NCBI GenBank assembly: GCA_945877405.1
Contig: CAMCSA010000004.1
Coordinates: 1 to 64,000, forward strand
Length of the DNA stretch: 64,000 bases
Source of the DNA: an uncultured Erysipelotrichaceae bacterium
GTDB taxonomy: Bacteria > Bacillota_I > Bacilli_A > Erysipelotrichales > Erysipelotrichaceae
Reading direction: 5' to 3'
Each line of letters begins with the position of its first letter. The stretch's first letter is position 1. The notes under the pieces are model-generated. The model was not told the origin of the DNA and did no database searches. It saw only the letters and a program-made list of their open reading frames with translations. Of this stretch, positions 1,581 to 61,489 are shown piece after piece. Position numbers and translations under genes: made by a program.

Positions 1581-3803
1581 ATGCCAATACAATATCATTC
1601 CAGTACAAAAACATTTCATCTGTACAATGATTCCATCAGTTACATTTTCATGATTCTGGAAAACGGTACTCCTGGTCAGCTTTACTATGGATCCAGGTTA
1701 TCGGATAAAGAAGATTTCAGCGAACTGCTGGAAATGAAAAGAAGAGCCAATGCACCATGTACCTATGAAGGAAACCTTCTATTTTCTCTGGAACATCTGA
1801 AACAGGAATACCCGTTGTATGGACATGGTGACCTGCGTTATCCTGCATGTTCCATACAGAAGGAAAATGGAAGCTATATTTTTGAATTCCAGTATGTATC
1901 CCATTCCATATACAAGGGAAAAAATAGAATAAAAGGGCTTCCTGCAATCTGGTGTGAAAACAGCGATGATATGGAATCTTTGGAAGTTGTACTGGAAGAT
2001 CAGCGGACAGATACACAACTGACACTGTACTATACCATCTGTACACACCTTCCTGTCATAGCCCGTCATGCTCTCATTCTTCACAATGGGCAATCATCCA
2101 TTACATTACAGCGTATGATGAGCTGTAATGTTGATCTGATTGATGATGCATGGGATATGATACAGCTTTCCGGTGCCTGGAGCAGAGAACGTCATGTATC
2201 CAGTACACCATTAAGACCAGGTGTACAGTCAGTTTATTCCATGCGTGGGCATTCTTCTGCGCAGTTCAATCCATTCCTTGCCCTGAAAAGGAAAGAGTGC
2301 AGTGAAACTGCAGGAGAGTGCATGGGCTTTACCCTTCTTTACAGCGGCAGTTATCTTGCACAGGTGGAAGTAGACAACTACCATGTCAGTCGTGTTCAGT
2401 TAGGAATTCATCCGGACTGTTTCGAATGGACATTACAGCAGGGAGAATCCTTTGAAACACCTGAAGCAGTATATGTTTACAGTGAGCATGGGCTTAATGG
2501 CATGAGTCAGGCATTCCATAAACTGTTCAATCATCATCTTGTCCGTGGTACATACCGACTTCAGGATCGACCGATTCTAATCAATAACTGGGAAGCAACC
2601 TACTTTGACTTTGATGAAGAAAAGATCGTCAGGATTGCTGAAACAGCTGCTAAAGCAGGGATAGAACTGTTTGTTCTGGATGATGGATGGTTCGGTAACA
2701 GAAATGATGATCATCGAGGATTAGGTGACTGGTATGCAAATGTGTCAAAACTGCCACATGGGATTGCAGGATTGTCAGAAAGAATACATGCGATCGGTAT
2801 GAAATTCGGTTTATGGATTGAACCAGAAATGGTCAATATGGATTCTGATCTGTATCGTGCTCATCCGGAATGGGTCATGATCGATCCGGATTACGTACCA
2901 TGTCATGGCAGAAATCAGTATGTCCTTGATTTTTCCAGAAGAGAAGTTGTTGATCACATTTTCAACATGCTTGATCATGTACTGGATGGTGCAGATGTCA
3001 ACTATATCAAATGGGATATGAACCGTACGATGAGTGAAGTCTATTCCCGCAGCCATTCATCGGATCGCCAGGGCAGAGTCATGCATGAATACATCCTTGG
3101 CGTATATGATCTTTATGAAAGACTCATGCAGAAGTATCCGGATATCCTGTTTGAATCATGTGCAAGTGGAGGAAGCCGATTTGATGCAGGTATGCTGTAT
3201 TATGCCCCACAGGCATGGACCAGTGATAACTCGGATGCCATTGAAAGACTGAAGATTCAGTATGGTACTTCCTTTGTCTATCCTCCATCCTGTATGGGAG
3301 CACATGTATCTGCTGTTCCAAATCACCAGGTATTCCGTAACACACCACTTAACACAAGAGCCAATGTTGCCTTTTATGGTGCCTTTGGTTATGAACTGGA
3401 TTTATCAAAGCTGAGTGATGAGGAAAAGGAAGAAGTCAGACAGCAGGTTGCATTCATGAAAAAATACAGACATGTATTTCAATATGGAACATTCTACAGG
3501 CTTTCTTCACCGTTTGAATCGAATGAAACAGTATGGATGAGTGTCAGTGAAGATCGCTCAACTGCAATCGTCGGCTATTATCGCGTACTGAATGAAGTCA
3601 ATGTCGGTTATCGCAGAGTCAGACTGGCAGGACTGGATGAAAATGCTGTATACACAATTAACGGCACAGATCAGGCAACAGATGGCAGAGAGCTGATGAA
3701 AGCCGGACTTGTGATAAGTGATTATACAAGTGGTGAGAATGGAGAGACATACAACGGCAGAAACGGTGATTTCATTTCACGTCTGTATGTGCTGGAATCA
3801 TAA
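1581..3803 (+). CDS. Alpha-galactosidase, GH36
   Basis: 740 aa; motifs DDGWFGNRNDDHRGLGDW, IKWDMNR, ESCASGGSRFD, QAWTSDNSDAIERLKIQYG. Confidence 0.95.
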   Translation: MPIQYHSSTKTFHLYNDSISYIFMILENGTPGQLYYGSRLSDKEDFSELLEMKRRANAPCTYEGNLLFSLEHLKQEYPLYGHGDLRYPACSIQKENGSYIFEFQYVSHSIYKGKNRIKGLPAIWCENSDDMESLEVVLEDQRTDTQLTLYYTICTHLPVIARHALILHNGQSSITLQRMMSCNVDLIDDAWDMIQLSGAWSRERHVSSTPLRPGVQSVYSMRGHSSAQFNPFLALKRKECSETAGECMGFTLLYSGSYLAQVEVDNYHVSRVQLGIHPDCFEWTLQQGESFETPEAVYVYSEHGLNGMSQAFHKLFNHHLVRGTYRLQDRPILINNWEATYFDFDEEKIVRIAETAAKAGIELFVLDDGWFGNRNDDHRGLGDWYANVSKLPHGIAGLSERIHAIGMKFGLWIEPEMVNMDSDLYRAHPEWVMIDPDYVPCHGRNQYVLDFSRREVVDHIFNMLDHVLDGADVNYIKWDMNRTMSEVYSRSHSSDRQGRVMHEYILGVYDLYERLMQKYPDILFESCASGGSRFDAGMLYYAPQAWTSDNSDAIERLKIQYGTSFVYPPSCMGAHVSAVPNHQVFRNTPLNTRANVAFYGAFGYELDLSKLSDEEKEEVRQQVAFMKKYRHVFQYGTFYRLSSPFESNETVWMSVSEDRSTAIVGYYRVLNEVNVGYRRVRLAGLDENAVYTINGTDQATDGRELMKAGLVISDYTSGENGETYNGRNGDFISRLYVLES

Positions 3804-42349: not shown

Positions 42350-44539
42350 GTGAAGAATCTTGTTATTGTAGAGTCTCCGTCTAAATCCAAAACAATCGGA
42401 AAATATCTGGGAACGGACTATCTTGTCGTTTCCAGTAAAGGGCATATTCGAGACCTTGCGATCAAAGGAAAGGATGGATTGGGCGTTGATATTGAAAATG
42501 ACTTTGCCCCGATCTATGAGATCAGCAAGGATAAGGTGACAACAGTCAAAGAGTTGCAGAAGCTTGCTGAAAGAGCGGATTATGTATATCTGGCAACCGA
42601 CCCGGACCGCGAAGGAGAAGCCATCAGCTGGCATCTGGCACAGGAACTTGGACTTGATGAAGATGCGATTGATCGCGTCACATTCCATGAAATTACAAAA
42701 AATGCGGTACAGCAGGCATTCAGCCAGCCACGTGCGATTGATATGGATCTTGTCCATTCCCAGGAAACAAGAAGAATTCTGGATCGAATCATCGGTTTCC
42801 GTCTTTCCAAACTGCTCAAGTCTAAAATTAGTTCCAAATCCGCAGGCAGAGTACAGTCCGTGGCATTAAAGCTGATTGTTGAAAGAGAAAAGGAAATCAA
42901 TGCCTTTGTTCCACAGGAATACTGGAGCATTGATGGTGTATTCAACAAGGATGGAGAGTCATTCAATGCCTCTTTAGCAAAAGTGGATGGCGAAAAGGTC
43001 AATATCGAAAACAAAGAGCAGGCACAGGCAATTCTGGAAAGATGTCAGGGTGATTTCATTGTATCTGCAATCCGCTCCTCCAGAAGAAACCGTTCCCCAC
43101 GACCACCATTTATCACATCCACCCTGCAGCAGGAAGCAAGTACAAAGCTCTCCTTCTCTGCCAAAAGGACGATGTCCATTGCACAGAAACTGTATGAAGG
43201 AATTGATGTCGGGAATGGAGAAGAAGGTCTGATCACATATATGCGTACCGACAGTACAAGACTGTCAGACGTATTTGTAAGTGCGGCAAGAACACAGATT
43301 ACAGAGCGGTATGGCAAGGAATACCTTGGTACATATACAATCCGTAATGATGAAGGTGCACAGGATGCTCATGAAGCAATTCGTCCTACCAATCTTGCCT
43401 ATACACCAGAAAGAGTCAAGGAATATCTCAGCAGTGAACAGTACAGGCTGTATCGGATGATCTATGCCCGTGCGGTTGCTTCATTGATGGCACCAGCTGC
43501 CTATAACCAGGTTTCCATTTCTCTGGAAAGAAACGGATGCGTTTTTTCCGCAACTGGAAGTACACTGGATTTTGACGGATATCTGAAAGTCTATGGTGAT
43601 TATGATTCCTCCAAGGATGTCATTCTTCCATTGTTGAGCGAAGGGGAAGTACTGAAGGATGCTGTGATCACACCAAACCAGCATTTTACAGAACCGCCAT
43701 CTCGTTATACCGAAGCAAAACTGATCAAGGCATTAGAGGAAGATGGAATCGGAAGACCTTCCACGTATGCGATGATCATTGATACCATTCAGATCAGAGG
43801 CTATGTCACATTGGATCGTGTATCTGAAAAATCCCGTACAAAGGTATTCAGACCGACCGATCAAGGCATCCTGACAACAGAAAAACTGGATGAGTATTTC
43901 TCTTCCATCATCAATGTAGACTACACAGCACAGATGGAACAGACACTGGATGAAATTGCAGAAGGAAAACAGGAAGAAGTCACAACACTGCGTGACTTCT
44001 ATGACAGATTTACACCACTGTTGGATAAGGCATATCAGGACATGGAAAAGATTGCACCGGAAAAAACAGGTGAAACATGTCCGGAATGCGGTGGAGATCT
44101 TGTCTACCGCAATGGCCGGTTTGGCAGATTCATTTCCTGTTCCAATTTCCCGAAATGCAAATATACGGCACAGATGGAAAAGGAAGGAAAGGAAAAACCG
44201 GAACCGACTGGAAAGATGTGTCCGGAATGCGGCAGTGAACTGCTGAAAAGAAAGTCACGCTTCGGTTCCTTCTTTTTAGGATGCTCAGGTTTCCCGAAGT
44301 GTACTTACATGGAAAATCTGGATGGAGAAAGAATCTATTCCAGAAAGGAAAAGCTGAAGATGAAGGAGGAAGCACAGACTGCAGGGCTTGAAGACAGTGA
44401 AGAAAAGCCAAAGAAAAAGTCGACAAAAAAAGCTTCCACCACAAAGAAAAAGACAACGACAACAAAAAAGAAGACTTCTACGTCGACAAAAAAGAAAACA
44501 ACAGTGCGGAAGAAGAAAACGGATGAGGTGGCTGAATGA
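42350..44539 (+). CDS. topA: DNA topoisomerase I
   Basis: [18 protein letters not shown]; zinc-ribbon C-terminus; Lys/Thr-rich tail. Confidence 0.97.
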
Positions 44540-45834
44540 GAAGAGTCAAGGTAATCGGAGCAGGACTGGCTGGTTGTGAGGCTGCCTGGCAGCTGGCACA
44601 AAGAAACATTCCTGTATCCTTGTATGAAATGAAGCCTGTGAAGTATTCACCAGCTCACCATAGTGAAGGATTTGCAGAACTGGTATGTTCCAATTCACTG
44701 CGCTCGGATGCATTAACAAATGCAGTCGGACTGCTCAAGGAAGAGATGAGAATGATCGGATCTGTGATCATGGAAGCTGCGGAAGCTACGAAGGTTCCAG
44801 CAGGCAGTGCACTTGCGGTGGATCGTGAAAAGTTCTCACAGTATGTCACAGAAAAAATCACATCGAACCCGATGATTGAAGTGATTCATGAAGAAATCAC
44901 TGAGATTCCGGATGGCCCTGTAATCATCGCAACCGGTCCGTTAAGCTCAGATGCCATCTCTAAAGCAATCGGCAGGCTGATTGATGAAAAGTACTGTTAT
45001 TTCTATGATGCTGCGGCACCGATTGTTACCGCTTCTTCCATCAATATGGATATTGCCTATCGCAGATCCCGCTATGATAAAGGAGAAGCGGACTATATCA
45101 ACTGTCCGATGGACAGATCACAGTTTGATGCGTTTTATGAAGCACTGATTACTGCAGAAACTGCAGAAGTACATGGCTTTGAAGATGAAAAGGTATTTGA
45201 AGGCTGTATGCCGTTTGAAGTCATGGCAAAGCGTGGCAGAAATACGCTGTTATTCGGCCCGATGAAACCGGTTGGTCTCAACCGTCCGGATGGATCAAGA
45301 CCATATGGTGTTGTCCAATTGAGACAGGATAATGCGGAAGCATCTTTATACAACGTCGTCGGATTTCAGACCCATCTGAAGTGGGGTGAGCAGAAACGGA
45401 TTCTGCAGATGATTCCAGGACTGGAAAACTGTGAAATCGTACGGTATGGCGTCATGCACAGAAATACATATATCAATTCACCTGTCTGTCTGAAGGAAAC
45501 ATATCAGTACAAAAACAGGGACGATCTGTTTTTTGCCGGGCAGATGACCGGGGTGGAAGGCTATATTGAAAGTGCTGCCAGTGGTATGCTTGCCGGTATC
45601 AACATGGCACATGTATATCATGGCCGCCAGCCTGTCACGCCAGGTCCGGAAACAATGATCGGTGCAATGTCGCATTATATAACCCATGCTGATCCAGCTC
45701 ATTTCCAGCCGATGAATGCCAACTTCGGTATCTTCCATCTGAAAAATGATGTGAAGAAAAAGGATCGTAAATCAGCCTATGCACCACAGTCCATTTCCAT
45801 CATTCAGGGATTCATCGATAATGGAAAACTATGA
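44536..45834 (+). CDS. trmFO: Methylenetetrahydrofolate--tRNA-(uracil54-C5)-methyltransferase
   Basis: [33 protein letters not shown]. Confidence 0.96.
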
Positions 45835-46756
45835 TGAAATGCTGGGAAAGTTCCTGGATGCCATGGCGCTGAAACGCACTGGCTCAAAAGATACGCAGGA
45901 TGCGTATCGAAGGGATCTTTCCCGTTTTCTTTCCTGGCTGCAGGCAGAAAGCATTACATCCTTAAATGATGTCACAACTGCAGATATCGCAGCATATCTT
46001 TCTCTGTTGCGTAAAGGCAAGATTGGAGGAAAGCCGTTATCCAATGCTTCCTATGACAGAAATCTGTCTGCTTTGAAGTCCTTTTACCGCTATGCATGCA
46101 GATCACTTGGCATCATGAATAACCCGGTTGCCAGATTTCATGGGGCTAAAATCGGCAGGCATCTTCCGGAATATCTGAGCTTTGATCAGATGGAGGCGGT
46201 ACTGGATACATTTGATCTGACTGATCCGGTTGGGGTAAGAAATCGGGCGATGATTGAAGTGATGTATGCATGTGGATTACGTGTATCAGAATGTGCAACA
46301 CTGAAGATAGAAGATCTGCATTTTGAGCAGAACTGCCTGATTGTACTTGGTAAGGAATCCAAGGAAAGAATGGTCCCTTTTTACCCACGATGCAGACAGC
46401 TGCTGGAACATTATATGCAGATTGATCGACCAACCATCATGAAACAGCAGAAGGAACATGGAATCGTATTTGTCAATCAGAAAGGCAAGCCGATTTCGAC
46501 AAGAGCCATTCAGCAGATTGTGGAAAAGGCAGGAGAAGATGCAGGTATCGGCATTCATCTGCATCCGCATATGATCCGCCATTCCTTCGCAACACATCTA
46601 ATCAATAATGGTGCGGATCTGCGTGTCGTACAGGAACTGCTTGGACATGAAAATCTTTCTACGACACAGATCTATACACATGTGGATGAAGCACATCTGA
46701 GAAAGGTTGTGGAAATGGCACATCCATATGCAGGAAAGAACAAAGATAAAAAATAG
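45821..46756 (+). CDS. XerC/XerD tyrosine recombinase
   Basis: R-H-R-H-Y catalytic set: [48 protein letters not shown]. Confidence 0.94.
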
Positions 46757-46772
46757 CCCGCCAAAGGGTGAG

Positions 46773-47822
46773 CTATTGTGATAGCAGTGTCAGATCACAG
46801 GCTTCCTGTACATCGAAAGCTTCAAAATAGGTATTTTCCAGAGGGATCCACTTCTGCCTGAAATCTTCAAGCAGGTCCGGATTCCTTTTTGCGATTCTTT
46901 CAATCTGTCTTTCAGGATCAATATCAACAAAGATCGAGCAGTCATAGTATTTCCGTAACGATGGATACATGGAATAGGAACCTTCGATCACGGTCATATG
47001 CGTATTGGTCAGGTGAATCAGATCTGAGGAAAGAGAGAAGGTGGAACAGTCAAACCAGTGATAGCTGACAGGTTTTCCTTTCTGTAATGGCTGCAGTACT
47101 TCTTCTTCCAGTCTTTCCCGATCAAAGTTACCTCCAGGCTGGCTGTAGCGTTCCGCTGTTCTTTGATGTTTCTGCAGATAGAAATCATCAACATGGATCA
47201 AAGATGCACCATAGATGTCTTTGAGAAAGACGCCAAGTGTTGTCTTGCCTGCACCACAATGTCCATCAATCGCAATGACCATGTGATCTTTTCTGTGCTG
47301 ATCGATATACAGTAAGACAGGAATATAAGGTACATAGTCTTTATGGATGACCCTGTAGGCTGGATGGTATGTATTTCTATAAGATGCAGAATGGCTGATT
47401 GGCAGATATGTACCATCTTTCCAGTCCTGAATCCACGCCAGGGAAGCATTCTGATCAAATGGGGTTTTACCATCTGTGATCATCTGTTTTAGCACTGTCA
47501 GTTTTTCTTCCAGTGCCACAATGGCATATGGCTCCTTACGTGCAGATATGCTGAAAAGGGAAGCAAGGGTATCAGCTGACATGCCTTCATCCAGAATGGA
47601 AAGATACAGCCGGACATAGTTACCGTCTAATGGTTCGATGGAAAATGAAGTACATGGCTGTAATGATGTATATTCACTGATGATCCTTTCCTTACAGGCA
47701 TGTATATCATCAACAAAATGACCGCATCCAAAACAGCTCTGATACAGTGCTTTACATATATCCTGAACAGTGGAGGATGGATACTTCACAAGAAGGTTGT
47801 TAATGAAGTTTTCTGTGTTCAT
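46773..47822 (-). CDS. Two-domain protein: unknown N-terminal domain fused to uridine kinase-like P-loop domain
   Basis: AIDGHCGAGKTTLGVFL Walker A; HVDDFYL; N-terminal about 165 aa with CFGCGHFVDD motif. Confidence 0.8.
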   Translation of the reverse strand: MNTENFINNLLVKYPSSTVQDICKALYQSCFGCGHFVDDIHACKERIISEYTSLQPCTSFSIEPLDGNYVRLYLSILDEGMSADTLASLFSISARKEPYAIVALEEKLTVLKQMITDGKTPFDQNASLAWIQDWKDGTYLPISHSASYRNTYHPAYRVIHKDYVPYIPVLLYIDQHRKDHMVIAIDGHCGAGKTTLGVFLKDIYGASLIHVDDFYLQKHQRTAERYSQPGGNFDRERLEEEVLQPLQKGKPVSYHWFDCSTFSLSSDLIHLTNTHMTVIEGSYSMYPSLRKYYDCSIFVDIDPERQIERIAKRNPDLLEDFRQKWIPLENTYFEAFDVQEACDLTLLSQ

Positions 47823-47914
47823 ACATGTATTGTACTATAAAACAGTTGAAAAGCTTTCCCCATTTCTGCAACGTTTGTACTACAATATAGATAAGAAAAA
47901 TCCGGAGAAGTATC

Positions 47915-48103
47915 ATGTCAGAAATTTTTAAAAACGACCAGGCCTATCGTGAAAAGGCCAGAAGGATCATGGAGAATGATCCTGTCATGATCATGTCATT
48001 AAGCCATGAAGCACATTATCTGTATGAACAGGGAATGATTTCAGAAGCCTGTTATCAGGAAATCTATGAAATGTCCCGCAGATATGCTTCTGAAAAGAAA
48101 TGA
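47915..48103 (+). CDS. Hypothetical small protein (62 aa)
   Basis: SD ggagaagtatc; followed by a terminator hairpin. Confidence 0.5.
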   Translation: MSEIFKNDQAYREKARRIMENDPVMIMSLSHEAHYLYEQGMISEACYQEIYEMSRRYASEKK

Positions 48104-48111
48104 CATTGTCG

Positions 48112-48143
48112 AAACATGGGGTGATGCTCCATGTTTTCTTTAT
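48112..48143 (+). terminator. Intrinsic terminator
   Basis: aaacatgggg tgat gctccatgttttcttt. Confidence 0.7.
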
Positions 48144-48208
48144 GTGGAACCCACGCAATCATTTCGTGAAGTATGATATTTTACAGATAAGAAGGATAGA
48201 ATGACAAT

Positions 48209-49015
48209 ATGTTTGAAGAACAGTTCAGAAGTGTGAAACGAAAACATCCTCTGATTCACAGTATAACCAATCTTGTGACGATCAATGATGTTGCCAATAT
48301 GATTATTGCCTGTGGTGCATCCCCGATTATGGCGATTGCACCGGAAGAAGTACAGGAAATCACTGCCATCGCAGATGGTCTTAACATCAATATCGGTACA
48401 TTACAGGAAAAAACGGTAGAAGCCATGCTTCTTTCCGGTTTCACAGCAAACATGAAAGGAATTCCTGTCATCCTGGATCCGGTTGGCGTGGGTGCATCAT
48501 CATTCCGGAAGCGGACTGTCCATCGGCTTTTTCAGGAAATCCGGTTTTCTGCGATCAAAGGAAATGCGGCTGAAATCCGATGCCTGTTGGAAGAAAGTGG
48601 AGAGATGAAAGGCGTGGATGGAGCAGAAGAAGGAACAATGGAATCATTTGTGTCTATTGCCATCAGTCTTTCAAAGAAAACCGGGTCGGTTGTGATCATG
48701 AGTGGTGAAACGGATATCGTAACAGATGGAAGCAGAACATGTATGATTACAAATGGGCATCCGATGATGAAAGATGTCAGTGGAACAGGATGCATGTTAT
48801 CAGGAATGATCACATCATTCTGTGCAGCAGACAGCCATCATCTGTTTGAGGCGGCTTGTGCAGCAGTCATGACGATGGGAATTGCCGGTGAGAAAGCATC
48901 TGAAGCCATGTTGCCATCCATGGGTAACGCCACATACAGAACACGCATCATTGATGCAGTCTATACAATGAAGGAAACAGATTTCAAGGAGTCAGTCAGA
49001 TATGAAATGCAGTAA
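48209..49015 (+). CDS. thiM: Hydroxyethylthiazole kinase
   Basis: PLIHSITNLVTINDVANMIIACGASPIMA, DPVGVGAS, DVSGTGCMLSGMI. Confidence 0.96.
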   Translation: MFEEQFRSVKRKHPLIHSITNLVTINDVANMIIACGASPIMAIAPEEVQEITAIADGLNINIGTLQEKTVEAMLLSGFTANMKGIPVILDPVGVGASSFRKRTVHRLFQEIRFSAIKGNAAEIRCLLEESGEMKGVDGAEEGTMESFVSIAISLSKKTGSVVIMSGETDIVTDGSRTCMITNGHPMMKDVSGTGCMLSGMITSFCAADSHHLFEAACAAVMTMGIAGEKASEAMLPSMGNATYRTRIIDAVYTMKETDFKESVRYEMQ

Positions 49016-49643
49016 GGAAATGATGCGTTTATACGCAGTAACGGATCGCTGTTGGACAGAAAAAACAACATTATACGAGCAGATTGAACAGGCTCTGCAG
49101 GGTGGCGTGACATGTGTGCAGTTAAGAGAAAAGAATATGGATGAGCAGACCTTCATCAAAGAGGCAATGGAAATCAGGGAATTATGCCATGCCTATCATG
49201 TGCCGCTCATCATTAACGATCGGGTGGAAGTTGCTTTGAAAGCAGGAGCAGATGGCATCCATGTAGGCCAGGATGATCTTTCGGTAGAGCAGGTCAGAAA
49301 GCTTGTCGGTAATGATATGATTATTGGCGTATCTGCCCATAATCCAGATGAGGCCATGGAAGCAGTAAAAGGTGGAGCCGATTATCTGGGAACAGGTGCT
49401 GTCTTTGGTTCTACAACCAAAAACAATGTGACAACACTGTCCTATGATACTTTGAAAGCCATAACTGCCTGTGTGGATGTTCCGATTGTTGCGATTGGTG
49501 GAATCAATGAAACCAATATTGAAAAGCTGAAAGGAAGCGGTGTGGATGGAGTTGCTGTTGTCAGTGCCATCTTTGCCGCAAAGGATATCAGAAAACAGTG
49601 TGAAAAACTCAAAGCACTGTCTGAAAGGATGATCGAAGGATGA
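49002..49643 (+). CDS. thiE: Thiamine-phosphate synthase
   Basis: LYAVTDRCWTEKTTLYEQIEQALQGGVTCVQLREKNMDE. Confidence 0.96.
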   Translation: MKCSKEMMRLYAVTDRCWTEKTTLYEQIEQALQGGVTCVQLREKNMDEQTFIKEAMEIRELCHAYHVPLIINDRVEVALKAGADGIHVGQDDLSVEQVRKLVGNDMIIGVSAHNPDEAMEAVKGGADYLGTGAVFGSTTKNNVTTLSYDTLKAITACVDVPIVAIGGINETNIEKLKGSGVDGVAVVSAIFAAKDIRKQCEKLKALSERMIEG

Positions 49644-50290
49644 GTGTGCAGTGTGTCATCTTTGACTTTGATGGAACACTGTTTGATTCGATGTATGTAT
49701 GGAAAGATGTCGGAAGAAAATATCTGAACATGTTTCACATCACACCATCAGATGATTTTGAACAGATCATTTCAAGCATGACTCTTCAGCAGGCAGCAGA
49801 ATATGTACAGCATCATTATCTGACTCATCAGTCAGTAAACCAGATCATGGATGGAGTCAGCAGAATTGTTGCGGAAGATTATGCATCCCATATATTACCA
49901 GCCAAAGGTGTACCACAGTTGCTGGCAGAACTTGCAGGGATGAACGTCCGAATGGTCATCGCAACTCTTTCTGAGCAAAAGCATGTGATTGCCGCATTAC
50001 AAAGATGTCATCTGGATTCCTATTTTATGGATATCATCACTGCAGAAGATGTTCCATCTGGCAAACAGTCAGCACAAATCTATGAAAAGGCAATGGCTGC
50101 AGCAGGTGGAAGAAAGGATCACACAATCGTCGTAGAAGATGCATACTTTGCCGCAAAGACAGCACACGATGCAGGCTTTACGGTAGTTGGTGTATATGAG
50201 CAGAATGAAACAGAACATGAAAAGATGAAGGAAATCTGTGATCTGTATGTAGAAGATTTATCGAAATGGAAAACAGGGGAGGTATTATGA
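49640..50290 (+). CDS. HAD-superfamily phosphatase within thi operon
   Basis: CVIFDFDGTLFDSMYVWKDVG; overlaps thiE and thiD. Confidence 0.92.
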   Translation: MSVQCVIFDFDGTLFDSMYVWKDVGRKYLNMFHITPSDDFEQIISSMTLQQAAEYVQHHYLTHQSVNQIMDGVSRIVAEDYASHILPAKGVPQLLAELAGMNVRMVIATLSEQKHVIAALQRCHLDSYFMDIITAEDVPSGKQSAQIYEKAMAAAGGRKDHTIVVEDAYFAAKTAHDAGFTVVGVYEQNETEHEKMKEICDLYVEDLSKWKTGEVL

Positions 50291-51081
50291 AACTGAAAAC
50301 AGCATTAAGTATTGCCGGATCTGACAGCTCGGGAGGAGCAGGGATCCAGGCGGACCTGAAGACAATGATCGCAAATGGTGTCTATGGAATGAGTGCGATC
50401 ACTGCATTGACTGCGCAGAACACAACAGGTGTTGCAGCAATCATGGAGGTGACACCACAGTTTCTTGCACAGCAGATTGATGCGGTATTTACCGATATCA
50501 GACCGGATGCGGTAAAGATCGGTATGGTATCAGACAGCAGTCTGATCAATGTGATTGCGGAAAGACTGTGTTTCTACAAGGCAGAAAACATTGTTGTAGA
50601 CCCTGTGATGGTGGCAACTTCAGGCAGTGCATTAATGAAGACAGATGCTGTTGAAACATTAATTAAAAAACTGCTTCCTTTATGTACGGTTGTTACTCCG
50701 AATATTCCGGAAGCTGAAGTACTTTCAGGAATGAAAATTGAAAATGTCGAAGATATGGAAAAAACAGCCATGACAATCCATGATCATTATCATTGTGCTG
50801 TTCTTGTCAAAGGTGGTCATTTCATCAATGATGCCAATGATCTGTTATGTGATGATGCGGGAATGACATGGTTTTATGGGAAAAGGATTGATAATCCGAA
50901 TACTCATGGAACAGGCTGTACACTGTCTTCTGCAATTGCCAGTTATCTGGCGAAGGGATATGATCTGAAAGAAAGCATCCAAAATGCAAAAGAGTATCTT
51001 TCCGGTGCACTTTCTTCCATGCTTGATTTAGGGCAGGGCGCTGGTCCTATGGATCATGGATATACACTCAAAACCAGATAA
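50287..51081 (+). CDS. thiD: Hydroxymethylpyrimidine (phosphate) kinase
   Basis: ALSIAGSDSSGGAGIQADLKTMIANGVYGMSAITALTAQNT. Confidence 0.96.
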   Translation: MKLKTALSIAGSDSSGGAGIQADLKTMIANGVYGMSAITALTAQNTTGVAAIMEVTPQFLAQQIDAVFTDIRPDAVKIGMVSDSSLINVIAERLCFYKAENIVVDPVMVATSGSALMKTDAVETLIKKLLPLCTVVTPNIPEAEVLSGMKIENVEDMEKTAMTIHDHYHCAVLVKGGHFINDANDLLCDDAGMTWFYGKRIDNPNTHGTGCTLSSAIASYLAKGYDLKESIQNAKEYLSGALSSMLDLGQGAGPMDHGYTLKTR

Positions 51082-51141
51082 AAAACTGACGTACTCCCCA
51101 TGGGGTGAAGTCCAAGGTTTTCTGGTCTGATATTTGTGAAT

Positions 51142-51178
51142 GACATCTGATTTTTCAGGAATCAGATGTTTTTTTGTA
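51142..51178 (+). terminator. Intrinsic terminator after thiD
   Basis: acatctgatt tttcagg aatcagatgttttttt. Confidence 0.85.
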
Positions 51179-51228
51179 TGATCTGTGGAAAAACCGGTAA
51201 TAACAATATACGAAGGGAGGTATTTTAA

Positions 51229-51792
51229 ATGCCTGAAAAATCATCATTACAAAATCGCATTATGACACCACAGATTATCAAAAACTCGATTCATGAAGTA
51301 AGACCAGCAGATGTGACGATTGTACGTGTATTCTTTTCCAGACCACAAACAATTCAGAAACTGCTTCAGATCGTGATGGATGATGTGAGTCTGCAGGTTG
51401 TCAACTGTATGAATGGAAGAAAGTACCTGCGCAGTGATCATTCGGTTGGATCTGCGGATCTGATCGTTCATACAGCGGATGGAAGAATCTTTGATGTTGA
51501 ATTCAATGAATCTAACGCGCGTACTGCACATACACTGTATATCCATGTTGGAAACCTTGCGGATAACCTGTATGTGTCAGATAGTTTACTGCAGAAGGAA
51601 ATCAAGGCTATGTGCATTGTATTTGCCAGCTACGTTCCTTATGATTTGAAGGAGCCAGAACCGGTCAGAAACGGATTTGCGATCAGGTTTATTACGCCAG
51701 ACAGTAAAAATACAAATACTGGACTTGGAATTCTGTATCATGACCTTTATGAATCGGATCCAAAGAAGATGGTGATTCCAGAATTCAGATAA
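51229..51792 (+). CDS. PD-(D/E)XK nuclease family transposase (Rpn-like), N-terminal part ended by in-frame TAA
   Basis: SADLIVHTADGRIFDVEFN catalytic-like motif; frame continues across a single TAA into 51799 ORF. Confidence 0.75.
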   Translation: MPEKSSLQNRIMTPQIIKNSIHEVRPADVTIVRVFFSRPQTIQKLLQIVMDDVSLQVVNCMNGRKYLRSDHSVGSADLIVHTADGRIFDVEFNESNARTAHTLYIHVGNLADNLYVSDSLLQKEIKAMCIVFASYVPYDLKEPEPVRNGFAIRFITPDSKNTNTGLGILYHDLYESDPKKMVIPEFR

Positions 51793-51834
51793 CGGGCAAT
51801 GGAACTCAAAATGACAGAAGGAGGCAGATTAGTT

Positions 51835-52143
51835 ATGGAAATGACACTCAGAGATTACATCGATGAACTTTTAAAACAGAATGCAACAGTGGAAGAAGAA
51901 CGTATAGCGGATAGAAAGAGATTTGAAGAAGAACGTTCCATGGACAGAAAGAACTACGAAGAAATCAAAGAAAGATACGAAGCAGAAAGAAAGAGATTCG
52001 AAGCAGTAAGTAATCATCTGAATACTGTTGTTATCAATCTGATTGAGCTCGCCAAGACGGATAAACAGATTGTAAGTCGTCTTGGATTATCGCAGAACTT
52101 GCTGGATGAGATCAGAGAAGAACTGAAGTTATCACTCAGCTGA
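51835..52143 (+). CDS. C-terminal Rpn cassette, copy 1 (RpnS-like candidate, 102 aa from ATG 51835)
   Basis: aaggagg (51818-51824) 10 nt before ATG; coiled coil plus LIELAKTDKQIVSRLGLSQNLLDEIREEL; alternative ATG at 51799. Confidence 0.6.
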   Translation: MEMTLRDYIDELLKQNATVEEERIADRKRFEEERSMDRKNYEEIKERYEAERKRFEAVSNHLNTVVINLIELAKTDKQIVSRLGLSQNLLDEIREELKLSLS

Positions 52144-52249
52144 TCATTCTAAAAATGGACTGATATACAGGGTTCATCACAGGCTGCTGGTCCCTGTATG
52201 CTATGAATAAGCAATGGAACTCAAAATGACAGAAGGAGGCAGATACGTT

Positions 52250-52537
52250 ATGGAAATGACACTTTTGGATTACATCCATGAACTTAAAAAGAAGAATGGA
52301 ATGATAGAAGAAGAACTTTCAGCGAATAGAAAGAGATTTGAAGAAGAACGTTCCATGGACAGAAAGAACTACGAAGAAATCAAAGAAAGATACGAAGCAG
52401 AAAGAAATAGCCTGAAAACGGTTGTTTTCAATCTGATTGAGCTCGCCAAGACGGATAAACAGATTGTAAGTCGTCTTGGATTATCGCAGAACTTGCTGGA
52501 TGAGATCAGAGAAGAACTGCAGTTGTCACTTAGCTGA
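52250..52537 (+). CDS. C-terminal Rpn cassette, copy 2 (95 aa from ATG 52250)
   Basis: Same internal aaggagg-N10-ATG; near-identical C-terminus to copy 1; alternative ATG at 52214. Confidence 0.6.
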   Translation: MEMTLLDYIHELKKKNGMIEEELSANRKRFEEERSMDRKNYEEIKERYEAERNSLKTVVFNLIELAKTDKQIVSRLGLSQNLLDEIREELQLSLS

Positions 52538-52588
52538 TCATTCTAAAATGAACTGGTATGAGGGAATATGCAGAACCTGTAAAAGGGC

Positions 52589-52616
52589 TTGCATATTTAT
52601 CGGACTATGATAAAAT
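52589..52616 (+). promoter_or_regulatory. Predicted pyr operon promoter
   Basis: TTGCAT - 16 nt - TAAAAT. Confidence 0.6.
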
Positions 52617-52626
52617 CATTTGGAAG

Positions 52627-52670
52627 AAAAAAGGACATTGATTCAACATGTATTCAGTTTCCTTTTTTTT
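52627..52670 (+). promoter_or_regulatory. Putative attenuator upstream of pyrB
   Basis: AAAAAAGGA (52627-52635) pairs with TCCTTTTTT (52660-52668) within T8 run; between promoter and pyrB ATG. Confidence 0.5.
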
Positions 52671-52689
52671 GAAAAAACGGGAGGGCATT

Positions 52690-53595
52690 ATGAACAAGTA
52701 TTCACTTCTTTCCATGCACGACTTATCTGTAGAGGAAATCAATGCAATTCTCGACGATGCTTTATTATTTGATAATTCCTGTTCGGATTGGCAGTTACCT
52801 CAGTCAAAAGCTCTGGTCGCCAATCTTTTTTTTGAAGCTAGTACGAGAACACATTATTCATTTGAAAGTGCCGAACTGCAGCTTGGCTGTAAGGCGGTTG
52901 ATATTGCCACACAGGCATCATCCATTACAAAGGGTGAATCACTGTATGATACAATCCGTACCCTGGAAGAGGCTGGTTATGACATGTTTGTCATCCGCCA
53001 CAGTACAGAACGTTATTATGATGAACTGAAGACAATCGACAAACCGATTCTTAATGCTGGAGATGGTGCAGCGGATCACCCGACGCAGTGTCTTCTGGAC
53101 CTGCTTACAATGAAGCAGGAATTCGGCAGTTTTGAAGGACTGAAAGTCATGATTGCCGGTGATATTCTGCACAGTCGCGTAGCAGCATCTAATAAATATG
53201 CATTGGAACTGCTTGGTGCTGAAGTGCGTTTTGCCGGTCCTGCAGAGTGGGCAAGAGAAGGTTATCCGACTGTAGATTTTGATGAATACTTACCGGAAGC
53301 TGATGTTGTCATGATGCTGCGCATTCAAAAGGAAAGGGGAGCAACATTATCTGGTGTTGCGGATGGTGATTACCTGAGTACATACGGGCTGACAAAGGAA
53401 AGATACGCAAGAATGAAGAAAGGTGCCATTGTCATGCATCCAGCACCTGTCAACCGTGGTGTGGAAATCGACAGTGATCTTGTGGAAGCAGATCGTAGCA
53501 GAATCTTCAAGCAGATGGCCAATGGTGTTCTTGTGCGTAAGGCAGTCATCAAGCGTGGCTTTGGTTATGCACCATTTGGGAGCGAAAACAAATGA
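52690..53595 (+). CDS. pyrB: Aspartate carbamoyltransferase
   Basis: LFFEASTRTHYSFESAELQLG; ATG 52690 after gggagggcatt. Confidence 0.96.
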   Translation: MNKYSLLSMHDLSVEEINAILDDALLFDNSCSDWQLPQSKALVANLFFEASTRTHYSFESAELQLGCKAVDIATQASSITKGESLYDTIRTLEEAGYDMFVIRHSTERYYDELKTIDKPILNAGDGAADHPTQCLLDLLTMKQEFGSFEGLKVMIAGDILHSRVAASNKYALELLGAEVRFAGPAEWAREGYPTVDFDEYLPEADVVMMLRIQKERGATLSGVADGDYLSTYGLTKERYARMKKGAIVMHPAPVNRGVEIDSDLVEADRSRIFKQMANGVLVRKAVIKRGFGYAPFGSENK

Positions 53596-54860
53596 AAAGA
53601 CTCATCCGTAATGCGAAGGTTCTCTATCATGGAGAACTTGTTGAAAAAGAAGTTCTGTTTGATGAAACCCAGATTCTTAAGATCGACGATCACATCGATA
53701 CAGATGCTCAAGTCATAGATGCTGAAGGGAATGCTGTATTACCAGGACTTGTTGATGTGCATGTTCACTTCAGACAGCCTGGAAGAGAAGCTAAGGAAAC
53801 AATTCATACCGGTTCTCTGGCAGCTGCACATGGTGGATTTACATCCGTCTTTGCAATGCCGAATGTTATTCCTTCGCCAGATGATGCAGACATCATGAAG
53901 GATTATCTGAAACTGATTGAAAAGGAAAGTGTAATCCATACATATCCATACGGAACCATAACCCGTAATGAAGCAGGCAAACAGCTTTCTGATCTTGATG
54001 GAATGAATCAGCTGGGTGTCAGATGGTTCTCAGATGATGGGGTTGGTATGAACAACCAGGATCTGATGAAACAGGCATTGCTGTATTCTAAAGAACATGG
54101 CTGTATCATCGCATGTCATACAGAAGATCTTGCCTTCAGAAAACCAGGTGCATCCGTACATGAAAGTGCCTATGCAGCTCAACATGGATGGATCGGGATT
54201 CCGGATGAATGTGAAAGTGCTCCACTCATTGCGGATCTGAAAACGGAAAAGGAAGTCAACGGCAGATATCATGCCTGCCACATTTCTTCTTCTCAGTCTG
54301 TGGAAGCACTCAGACAGGCAAAACAGGCAGGCCTGGATGTCAGTGGAGAAGTGACTGTACATCATCTGCTTCTGGAAAATACGGATGTCAAAGGTCCGAT
54401 GTGGAAGATGAATCCACCATTACGTACTCATGCTGATCGGATGTCATTAATTGAAGGGCTGGAAAGCGGCGCATTGGATTTCATTGCCAATGACCATGCA
54501 CCTCATACTGCAGAAGACAAGAATACGACAATGGATAAGGCAGCATTTGGAATAGTATCCATTGAAACAGCATTCCCTCTTCTGTACACGGAATTTGTTC
54601 ACAATACGAAGCGCTGGACACTGCAGCAACTGATTGAATGGATGAGTGAAAAACCTGCCGCAAGATTCGGACTTGAAAAAACAGGCAGAATTGAAGAAGG
54701 CTGGAAAGCTGACATGTTTATTGCGGATCTGAATACAACAGATCGGATTGATCCATCCACATTTTATTCCAAAGGTAAGAATACACCTTTTATCGGATGG
54801 GAAACATGTGCGAAAATAAAGGAAACGATAGTCGATGGTAAGACTGTCTGGAAGGAGTGA
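53592..54860 (+). CDS. pyrC: Dihydroorotase
   Basis: LPGLVDVHVHFRQPGREAKE, NDHAPHTAEDK. Confidence 0.96.
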   Translation: MKRLIRNAKVLYHGELVEKEVLFDETQILKIDDHIDTDAQVIDAEGNAVLPGLVDVHVHFRQPGREAKETIHTGSLAAAHGGFTSVFAMPNVIPSPDDADIMKDYLKLIEKESVIHTYPYGTITRNEAGKQLSDLDGMNQLGVRWFSDDGVGMNNQDLMKQALLYSKEHGCIIACHTEDLAFRKPGASVHESAYAAQHGWIGIPDECESAPLIADLKTEKEVNGRYHACHISSSQSVEALRQAKQAGLDVSGEVTVHHLLLENTDVKGPMWKMNPPLRTHADRMSLIEGLESGALDFIANDHAPHTAEDKNTTMDKAAFGIVSIETAFPLLYTEFVHNTKRWTLQQLIEWMSEKPAARFGLEKTGRIEEGWKADMFIADLNTTDRIDPSTFYSKGKNTPFIGWETCAKIKETIVDGKTVWKE

Positions 54861-54865
54861 ACGGA

Positions 54866-55948
54866 ATGAATACAAGATATCTTGTACTGGAAGATGGCAG
54901 CTATTATGAAGGTTATGGTTTCGGATCTGATGAATATCAGATCGGAGAACTTGTCTTTAATACATCCATGACCGGTTATCAGGAAATCCTGACGGATAAT
55001 TCCTACTGCGGTCAGATTGTCATGATGACATATCCTCTGATCGGTAACTATGGCATCAACCGCGATGACAATGAATCCGTACGTCCATATGTATTCGGCT
55101 TTGTTGTCAAAGACTGCTGTGATGAACCAAGTAATTTCAGAGTTGAGGAAACACTGGATGAGTATCTCAGAAATGTACATATCCCTGGCATTTATGGGGT
55201 TGATACAAGAGCGATCACAAGAAAGATCCGCTCCATCGGTACATTAAAGGCTTCCTTCTGTAACACGGAAGAAGAAATTCCTTCTCTTGTGGAAACACTG
55301 AAAGCTGCAGATTTCCTGCATGATCAGGTTGCACGTGTATCCACAAAGAATGTGTATCCGATCCCAGGCAGAGGAAAGAAAGTCGTTGTCATGGACTTCG
55401 GCATCAAGCTTTCCATTTTAAGAGAACTTGCCGCAAGAGATCTGGATCTGATTGTTGTACCTTATGATACGGATGCATCAACCATTCTCAACTATCATCC
55501 GGATGGAGTGTTCCTTTCCAATGGTCCTGGTGACCCATCTGATCTGACTGGCGTGATTGAAACAGTTCAGAAGCTGATCGGTAAGGTGCCGATGTTTGGA
55601 ATCTGCCTTGGTCATCAGCTGATCAGTCTTGCCTGTGGTGCGAAAACCTATAAGCTCAAGTTCGGCCATCGTGGCGGAAACCATCCGGTTGTCAATCTTT
55701 CAACCGGCAAGGTGGATATCACATCACAGAACCATGGCTTTGCGGTAGATATTGAATCTTTAAAAAATACGGATCTTGAAATGAGCTATCGGGCATTGAA
55801 TGATGGAAGTTGTGAAGGGGTACGTCACACAAAGGCACCATGCTTTGCAGTGCAGTTTCATCCGGAAGCAAATGCAGGTCCACAGGATTCCAATTACCTG
55901 TTTGATGAATTCATCACATTAATGGAAGGGGAGAAAGCAAATGCCTAA
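54866..55948 (+). CDS. carA: Carbamoyl-phosphate synthase small subunit
   Basis: [36 protein letters not shown]. Confidence 0.97.
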
Positions 55949-58900
55949 GCGTAAGGATATACATAAGATCATGGTCGTAGGCTCCGGTCCGATTGTCATC
56001 GGTCAGGCAGCTGAATTTGACTATGCAGGTTCCCAGGCCTGCGCAGCACTGCGTGAAGAAGGATATGAAGTCATTCTGATCAACTCCAATCCGGCTACGA
56101 TCATGACGGACTCCACCATTGCAGACCGCGTCTATATCGAACCATTGACACTGGATTCTGCCAAAAGAGTCATTTTCAAGGAAAGACCGGATGCGATTCT
56201 TGGTTCTCTTGGTGGTCAGACTGGTCTCAACCTTGTTGTTGAACTGGCGGAAGATGGAATTCTGAATGAATTTGGTGTTGAAGTACTAGGTACAAACATC
56301 GAAGCCATCAACCGTGCAGAAGACAGAGAAATGTTCCGCTCCTTAATGCAGGACCTGCATGAGCCAATTCCCGAATCTGCCATCTGTCATTCCATTGAAG
56401 AAGCGGTGGAATTTGCGGAAAGAGAAGGATATCCGCTTGTTGTTAGACCTGCCTATACATTAGGTGGTACAGGTGGTGGATTTGTCCATGATGAACAGGA
56501 ATTAAGAGCCATTGCGGATTCTGGTATCAAGATGTCTCCAGTCAACCAGATTCTTGTAGAACAGTCCATTGCCGGATTCAAGGAAATTGAATATGAAGTC
56601 ATGCGTGACTCCAACGATAATGCGATTGTTGTATGTAACATGGAAAACCTTGATCCGGTTGGTATTCATACAGGTGACTCCATCGTCGTTGCCCCTGTTC
56701 AGACATTAACAGACCGTGAAAATCAGATGCTCCGTAATGCATCTCTTAAGATCATCAGAGCCCTTGGTATCTGTGGTGGCTGTAATGTACAGCTGGCACT
56801 GGATCCTAAGAGTTTCAAATATTATGTCATTGAAGTAAATCCACGTGTATCCAGATCTTCTGCACTTGCATCCAAGGCAACTGGTTATCCGATTGCACGT
56901 ATTTCTGCAAAACTTGCAGTTGGACTGACACTGGATGAAATCATCAATCCGATTACAGGTACATCCTATGCATGTTATGAACCTGCAATTGACTATATCG
57001 TATGCAAGTTCCCAAGACTTCCATTTGACAAGTTCCCGAATGGTGACAGACGTCTTGGTACACAGATGAAGGCGACTGGTGAAGTCATGTCCATCGGCAG
57101 AACATTTGAAGAAGCATTCCTGAAGTCTGTCCGTTCCCTTGAAATCAAGGTGGATCATATCGAAAAGAAGGATCTCAAACAGCTGGATGAACAGCAGCTG
57201 TACCTGAAGATCAAGGAAAGAGACGACGAAAGAATCTTTGCGATCGCTGAATGGATGAGAAAAGGATATGATCTGGAAAGAATCCAGAAGCTGACAAATA
57301 TCGACAACTGGTTTTTGAAGCATATTCATAGAATCATTGATCTGGAAACAGAAATGAAAGAACATCCGATGGATCTTGGCTTATTAAAGAAACTGAAGAT
57401 GTATGGATTTGCGGACAGCTATATTGCTTCTGCATGGGGCATGAAGGAATTTGATCTGTATGCATTACGGAAAGAGAATGGCATCATGCCTGTCTACAAG
57501 ATGGTAGATACATGTGCTGGTGAATTCGTCTCCGAAACACCATACTTCTATTCCACATATGAAAAGGAAAATGAATCCGAAGTATCGGATCGTAAGAAGA
57601 TCATCGTATTGGGTTCAGGTCCGATCCGTATTGGTCAGGGTGTTGAATTTGACTATGCAACGGTTCACTGCATTGAAACGCTGCATAATGAAGGATATGA
57701 AGCCATCATCATCAACAACAATCCGGAAACCGTATCAACGGACTTCTCCATTTCAGACAAGCTGTATTTTGAACCGCTCACAACAGAAGATGTCATGCAT
57801 GTCATTGATCTGGAACAGCCGATTGGTGTCATCGTACAGTTTGGTGGTCAGACTGCCATCAACCTTGCGGCAAGCCTGGAAGAACATGGTGTCACAATTC
57901 TTGGTACAAGTCTGGATGCGATCAACAAGGCAGAAGACAGACATGAATTTGAAACAATGCTCGATCAGCTTGGCATTCCACAACCGGAAGGCATGACAGC
58001 CTATACGGTAGAGGAATCCCTTGAAATTGCTCATAAGATCGGTTATCCGGTACTCGTCAGACCTTCTTATGTCCTTGGTGGAAGAGCAATGGAAATCGTT
58101 AATGATGATGAGGAACTGAAGGTTTATATGGCTACAGCCGTACAGGAAATCTCTCATGATTCACCGATTCTTGTTGACCGTTATGTCCTTGGTAAGGAAT
58201 GCGAAATTGATGCGATTGCGGATGGTAAGAATGTATATATTCCAGGTGTGATGGAACATATCGAAAGAGCCGGTATTCATTCTGGTGACTCCTTCTCCGT
58301 ATATCCGACTCAGACATTAAGTGACAATGTCAAAAAGACAATTATTGACTATGGTGAAAGAATCGGTAAGGGATTCGGCTTTGTAGGCCTTTACAATATT
58401 CAGTTTATTGTAGATAAAGATGAAAAGGTTTATGTACTAGAAGTCAATCCAAGATCTTCTCGTACGGTACCATTCCTTTCCAAGATTACTGGTGTACCGA
58501 TGTGTACGATCGCTACAAAAGCAGTTCTTGGGCAGTCCATTGAACAGCAGGGTTATACACCAGGCTATCATAAAGAAGATGCAGGCCATGTTTATGTCAA
58601 GGCACCGGTATTCTCTTTTGCCAAGCTGAGAAGTGTTGATACGGTGCTTGGTCCGGAAATGAAATCTACTGGTGAAGCACTTGGATGTGATACGACTTTT
58701 GAAAAGGCACTGTATAAGGCATTAATCGGCTCTGGTGTACAGATCCCTCACTATGGAGCAGCTCTGATTACTGTCGCAGATGGTGATAAGGAAGAAGCTC
58801 TTGGTATCGCAAGAAGACTGTATTCCATCGGTTATGGCTTATATGCAACAGCTGGTACAGCAAAGTATTTCCGTGAACATGGTCTGTTTGTCCATGATGC

Positions 58901-59146
58901 AAAGAAAATTTCCGAATCCAGTGAAGATGAGGATGTTCTGGATATCATCCGCAAGGGTAAGGTATCCTTTGTGGTCAATACAATTGATAATGCCCAGAAG
59001 AATTCTTCACTTGATGGATTCCTGATCCGCAGAGTCTCTGCAGAAAACAACATTTCCTGCATGACTTCTCTGGATACATGCAATGCACTGTGTGCAGTAC
59101 TGGAATCATTGAGCTTCTCAATGATATCCATGAATGAAATGGGGAA

Positions 59147-59150
<4 letters not shown>
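55941..59150 (+). CDS. carB: Carbamoyl-phosphate synthase large subunit
   Basis: 1069 aa with duplicated ATP-grasp halves. Confidence 0.98.

Positions 59151-61489
<2,339 letters not shown>

Follow-up and report, generated by a model that had tools for sequence, protein, structure and literature searches.

Has an Rpn-type toxin-antitoxin locus that carries a stop codon between its nuclease and its antitoxin region lost its toxin, or does it now work as a set of separate genes? This question is raised by a locus at positions 51229-52548 of the window, the whole stretch of 64,000 nucleotides that was analysed. An earlier note on this DNA had described the locus as an Rpn-type nuclease gene split by one in-frame stop, with its C-terminal cassette duplicated. 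It had suggested that the antitoxin or dimerisation module may be kept and multiplied and the nuclease half translationally separated. Its coordinates for the ORFs, the TAA, the internal ATGs and the repeat were every one correct on re-reading (Table 1).

Table 1. Coordinates of the features at the rpn locus, as positions in the window
Feature	Position	Strand	Basis or remark
Terminator-like hairpin upstream of the locus	51142..51170	+	13-bp stem and T run
Rpn-type PD-(D/E)XK nuclease half, 187 aa, ending in TAA	51229..51792	+	ORF, profile match, structure model
In-frame TAA between nuclease and RpnS-like cassette	51790..51792	+	ordinary residue there in relatives
RpnS-like cassette copy 1, 114 aa (start ATG 51799) or 102 aa (start ATG 51835)	51799..52143	+	colinear with Rpn profile
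Shine-Dalgarno GAAGGAGG, copy 1, formed by the E-G-G codons, 10 nt 5' of ATG 51835	51817..51824	+	
Inter-cassette inverted repeat ATACAGGG/CCCTGTAT	52165..52199	+	read from sequence
RpnS-like cassette copy 2, stand-alone, 107 aa (start ATG 52214) or 95 aa (start ATG 52250)	52214..52537	+	
Shine-Dalgarno GAAGGAGG, copy 2, 10 nt 5' of ATG 52250	52232..52239	+	

The first ORF is of Rpn type, as had been claimed, and the TAA interrupts what was once a continuous reading frame. The 187-aa product matches a profile built from 20 Rpn relatives, gathered via genome searches and with the window left out (hhalign 98%, E 4.5e-14). Directly after the TAA, the same frame reads CGG GCA ATG GAA CTC AAA ATG ACA GAA GGA GGC. 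The alignment to the profile crosses the stop without a gap, and when the 30 residues that follow are joined on, with the stop written as X, the score goes up from 53.9 to 69.3 bits, a value that was reached by none of 300 shuffled versions of these residues (best 59.7). Thus, the TAA sits within one ancestral Rpn frame. The colinear continuation of the profile past the TAA also places the cassette in the Rpn family and not in an unrelated one. Single open rpn frames occur in three paralogues in the same genome and in most relatives; the window locus encodes no full-length RpnL, the TAA standing between the nuclease and its RpnS domain. Direct scans of the locus with Pfam, NCBIfam and PADLOC gave no meaningful match. 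The window protein falls below the cut-off of PF12784 (PDDEXK_2, PD-(D/E)XK nuclease family transposase), whereas the intact relatives L010, L022 and L099, with which it aligns, exceed that cut-off.

Orthologues in related genomes had been proposed as a means of telling whether the TAA is recent. The comparison succeeded in part: most relatives are unsplit, and relatives have an ordinary residue at the position of the TAA, but a close orthologue of the locus was found in none of the 69 other genomes of the genus, nor among the viral contigs, genome contigs, plasmids and phages searched, so the comparison gives no date.

The internal start is where the family has its RpnS start. Because a Shine-Dalgarno sequence could conceivably arise by chance from the codons for T-E-G-G, the site was examined across the family. 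Met is present at the aligned internal-start position in 62 of 64 Rpn sequences, mostly relatives. The strength of the Shine-Dalgarno at these sites, the window's own included, was compared with that of synonymous recodings drawn from each gene's own codon use. It lies above the synonymous expectation at 57 of the 62 sites and at 30 of 34 non-redundant ones (<70% identity; p 8e-9). The other internal Mets of the same genes (465) have no such bias (p 0.23), and a Shine-Dalgarno of -9 kcal/mol or lower is found at 68% of the boundary sites versus 1.3% of these controls. The codon-level comparison supports the view that the internal start is under selection across these Rpn genes, and together with the near-invariant Met it indicates that RpnS starts are functional in the family. 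The internal starts at the window locus, which the earlier note had picked out by their Shine-Dalgarno and ATG, are very probably real.

The C-terminal cassette is indeed present a second time as an ORF of its own, with the same Shine-Dalgarno and ATG. The repeat spans approximately 340 nt overall and is 89-90% identical: 51796-51995 matches 52211-52410 with 90% DNA identity and 51976-52154 matches 52370-52548 with 89%, far above chance. Copy 2 is also directly preceded by a TAA (52208-52210) and is without one 7-residue segment of copy 1, a single in-frame difference of 21 nt. The model of copy 1 has one long helix and two short ones (helices 7-84, 88-95 and 99-109). Foldseek with the RpnS model returned nothing meaningful and no match to RpnAS. 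A cassette on its own has no significant match to the Rpn profile, as expected of a variable tail, and neither cassette matches the DUF4351 model (PF14261, stand-alone rpnS).

A second copy of the locus is found in the same genome on another contig, near a tRNA-like sequence (G000:C8:27406-28300; here the C8 copy). The stretch common to the two copies starts within the upstream hairpin. They share a 638-nt tract without a single difference, the TAA among it (51355-51992 in the window), and their flanks have diverged. The 5' part of the C8 copy has frameshifting indels and a stop, such that a complete nuclease half is not encoded. The RpnS frame there, of 107 aa, is open and mosaic, resembling copy 1 at first and copy 2 after that. 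The sharp borders of identity suggest recent gene conversion, although an assembler artefact is possible, so the TAAs of the window and the C8 copy are not independent evidence. The genome also has three intact Rpn paralogues on other contigs (L013-L015, on C18, C27 and C28) with near-identical nuclease parts; their coiled-coil tails differ in length, as expected of hypervariable RpnS regions.

Among known systems, the RpnL/RpnS toxin-antitoxins (COG5464) come closest to this arrangement. Zhong et al. 2023 (PMC10327210) described intragenic RpnS proteins in E. coli and C. difficile that act as antitoxins, as well as separate downstream rpnS genes in E. coli (rpnE-ypaA and rpnC). In E. coli, the length of the long-helix region sets the pairing of RpnL with RpnS (PMC10327210). 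Like these systems, the window locus has a PD-(D/E)XK nuclease domain with a variable helical C-terminal tail, an intragenic RpnS start with a ribosome binding site at the domain boundary, and an extra stand-alone rpnS downstream. The duplicated cassette is thus an arrangement of a type already known from that work. Unlike those systems, the window locus has a stop that blocks full-length RpnL, its nuclease residues are partly degenerate, and the difference between its cassettes is one of 7 residues, as against the four-residue repeats described there. The text of Zhong et al. 2023 (PMC10327210) used here does not describe a locus that keeps both cassettes but has its long form abolished by a stop.

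The nuclease half matches 5 of 10 near-invariant family positions, compared with a median of 95% for 29 relatives. This count is the joint lowest among 30 family members, tied with one other. A 12-residue loop is missing. An AlphaFold2 model of this half (pLDDT 74.5) has PD-(D/E)XK-like secondary structure, and Foldseek gave weak matches only, the best of them mostly PD-(D/E)XK nucleases. As in RpnA-D (YhgA-like/Transposase_31, PMC5350276), the three acidic residues are present: by alignment D28, D77 and E91 are the equivalents of D11, D63 and E82 of RpnA. Unlike in those proteins, N93 stands at the position of Q84 (mostly Q or E in relatives), L103 replaces the near-invariant R at the position of R94, and the nuclease product is without a tail. 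Kingston et al. 2017 (PMC5350276) found that the RpnA mutants D11A, D63A, E82A and Q84K are inactive, that Q84A and R94A lose recombination and keep toxicity, and that RpnD without its last 45 residues is weaker but not dead. These mutant data indicate that residual activity of the nuclease half is possible, and since its D-D-E residues are kept and its 187-aa frame is intact, it need not be dead.

We consider it somewhat probable (about 0.62) that the locus is an Rpn toxin-antitoxin system which a nonsense mutation has deprived of its long form, with RpnS cassettes still in place. A nonsense codon would have arisen in the linker between the nuclease and RpnS domains, so that RpnL is no longer made. 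The gene would now give a tail-less nuclease fragment and, from its own ribosome binding site at ATG 51835, RpnS. A partial tandem duplication would have produced the second, stand-alone RpnS at ATG 52250, and duplication or gene conversion would have spread the arrangement to the second locus. Family membership, the single ancestral frame, the conserved internal start, the duplication and the spread to a second locus are established at the level of sequence comparison. RpnS is presumably produced at the locus, the tail-less nuclease would have little or no activity, and the cassettes may be leftover or spare antitoxins that possibly still neutralise related Rpn proteins. Loss of the long form is supported by the degenerate nuclease half and by the C8 copy, which is also without the long form and has RpnS open. 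It is opposed by the retained D-D-E residues, by the intact frame of 187 aa, and by a relative that is split at the same boundary (described below). We find it likelier, and more economical, that the toxin was lost and the antitoxin cassettes survived than that a two-gene system was separated on purpose. The frame, the start and the duplication bear out in part the idea that the antitoxin module was kept and multiplied while the nuclease was separated, but they do not show that the split is maintained; decay of the long form that left the cassettes behind fits the data equally well or better.

An alternative that we regard as doubtful is that the stop made an ordinary two-gene system of tail-less nuclease and RpnS, to which comes a further RpnS whose helix differs in length. 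Translation of the parts as separate genes would set the ratio of the products and the second copy would widen antitoxin specificity. The genes would then be maintained, with the cassettes in reserve as antitoxins to the nuclease half or to other Rpn toxins, be they of the cell or of incoming elements, which we likewise find doubtful. The intact nuclease frame with its D-D-E residues fits such a split, as do the three of three cassettes that are open with Shine-Dalgarno and ATG kept. The 7 residues by which the cassettes differ lie in the long helix, the region that determines pairing by length in E. coli (PMC10327210). Furthermore, in one relative (L017, G094:C1:646866-647561) an independent frameshift has split the gene exactly at the nuclease/RpnS boundary, with a TAA two bases ahead of the RpnS ATG and both halves open. 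However, the other rpn breaks in the survey fall elsewhere in the gene. Clustering of breaks at the boundary was considered as proof of a functional split and rejected, as 2 of approximately 8 independent breaks lie there (estimated p ~0.06), not a significant concentration. The nuclease's binding partner helix is gone, which would leave RpnS without a partner for pairing of the RpnA type. In addition, the nuclease is broken in the C8 copy, and dN/dS between the two window cassettes is 0.66.

It is also possible, though in our view improbable, that there has been neutral decay only, the whole locus being a recent pseudogene that has had too little time for the cassettes to break. In a neutral simulation with 29 changes, the cassette frame was still open in 28% of the copies, and for this reason we did not accept that the open frames of the cassettes prove selection. 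The frameshifted C8 nuclease fits decay as well, and so does the lack of a relative in the genus genomes and in the viral contigs, genome contigs, phages and plasmids. On the other hand, Shine-Dalgarno, ATG and frame survive in all three cassettes despite the in-frame 21-nt indel, and each of the three cassette pairs has a dN/dS below 1 (0.34 and 0.55 for the comparisons with the C8 copy). These ratios, set against the proportion of neutral copies that stay open, do not demonstrate selection on the cassettes. Finally, an assembly or sequencing error, with a TAA that is not real or a repeat copied between contigs by the assembler, has very little to recommend it: the assembly is in 86 contigs and a sharply bordered tract of identity, exactly 638 nt long, is the pattern of a repeat filled with one consensus, but the flanks differ, each copy is embedded in a long contig (75 and 62 kb), and the window's second cassette is a third sequence with its own preceding TAA.

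Loss of the long form with cassettes surviving, the reading that we prefer, is also supported by the recurrence of downstream RpnS copies in other genomes. Stand-alone RpnS copies occur 3' of rpn genes in G043 (two loci), G046, G117, G042, G105 and G386, and those in G043 start just 5' of the Shine-Dalgarno, like the copy in the window. Candidate orphan RpnS loci in G095, G096 and G105 were rejected, all being at contig ends. Several other arrangements were seen in the survey. In L037 (G386:C1, reverse strand, ~2329-3202), three stand-alone RpnS-like copies lie in tandem behind an rpn gene; in the first of them, the one examined for this, an SD-like GGAGGTGG precedes the ATG. L056 (G044:C44:30515-33138) has three full or near-full rpn genes in tandem with tails that are 83-93% alike. 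Several Rpn matches in G117 and G283 have a single in-frame TAG.

The surroundings of the locus were also analysed. A scan of the locus for sigma-70 promoters found no site on the + strand, and an Rfam search of 44000-60000 returned nothing. The thi genes upstream (window 48209-51081) have relatives in only 7 of the 69 other genus genomes, and relatives of thiD are scattered across gut Bacillota; this patchy and scattered distribution suggests horizontal transfer. An empty thiD-pyrB site was sought in relatives and the idea rejected: thiD is present in 7 other genus genomes, with pyrB never adjoining.

By itself, the locus is of modest interest, being an Rpn gene that has lost its long form. 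More useful is what the comparison of relatives gave: in related Bacillota, the RpnS start, with its Met and its Shine-Dalgarno encoded by E-G-G, is conserved more than the protein sequence requires, and free-standing copies of RpnS have arisen repeatedly. Beyond E. coli and C. difficile, the codon-level test extends the gene-within-gene antitoxin to a broad group of Bacillota, and the loci found here provide concrete cases for asking whether RpnS copies are spare antitoxins.
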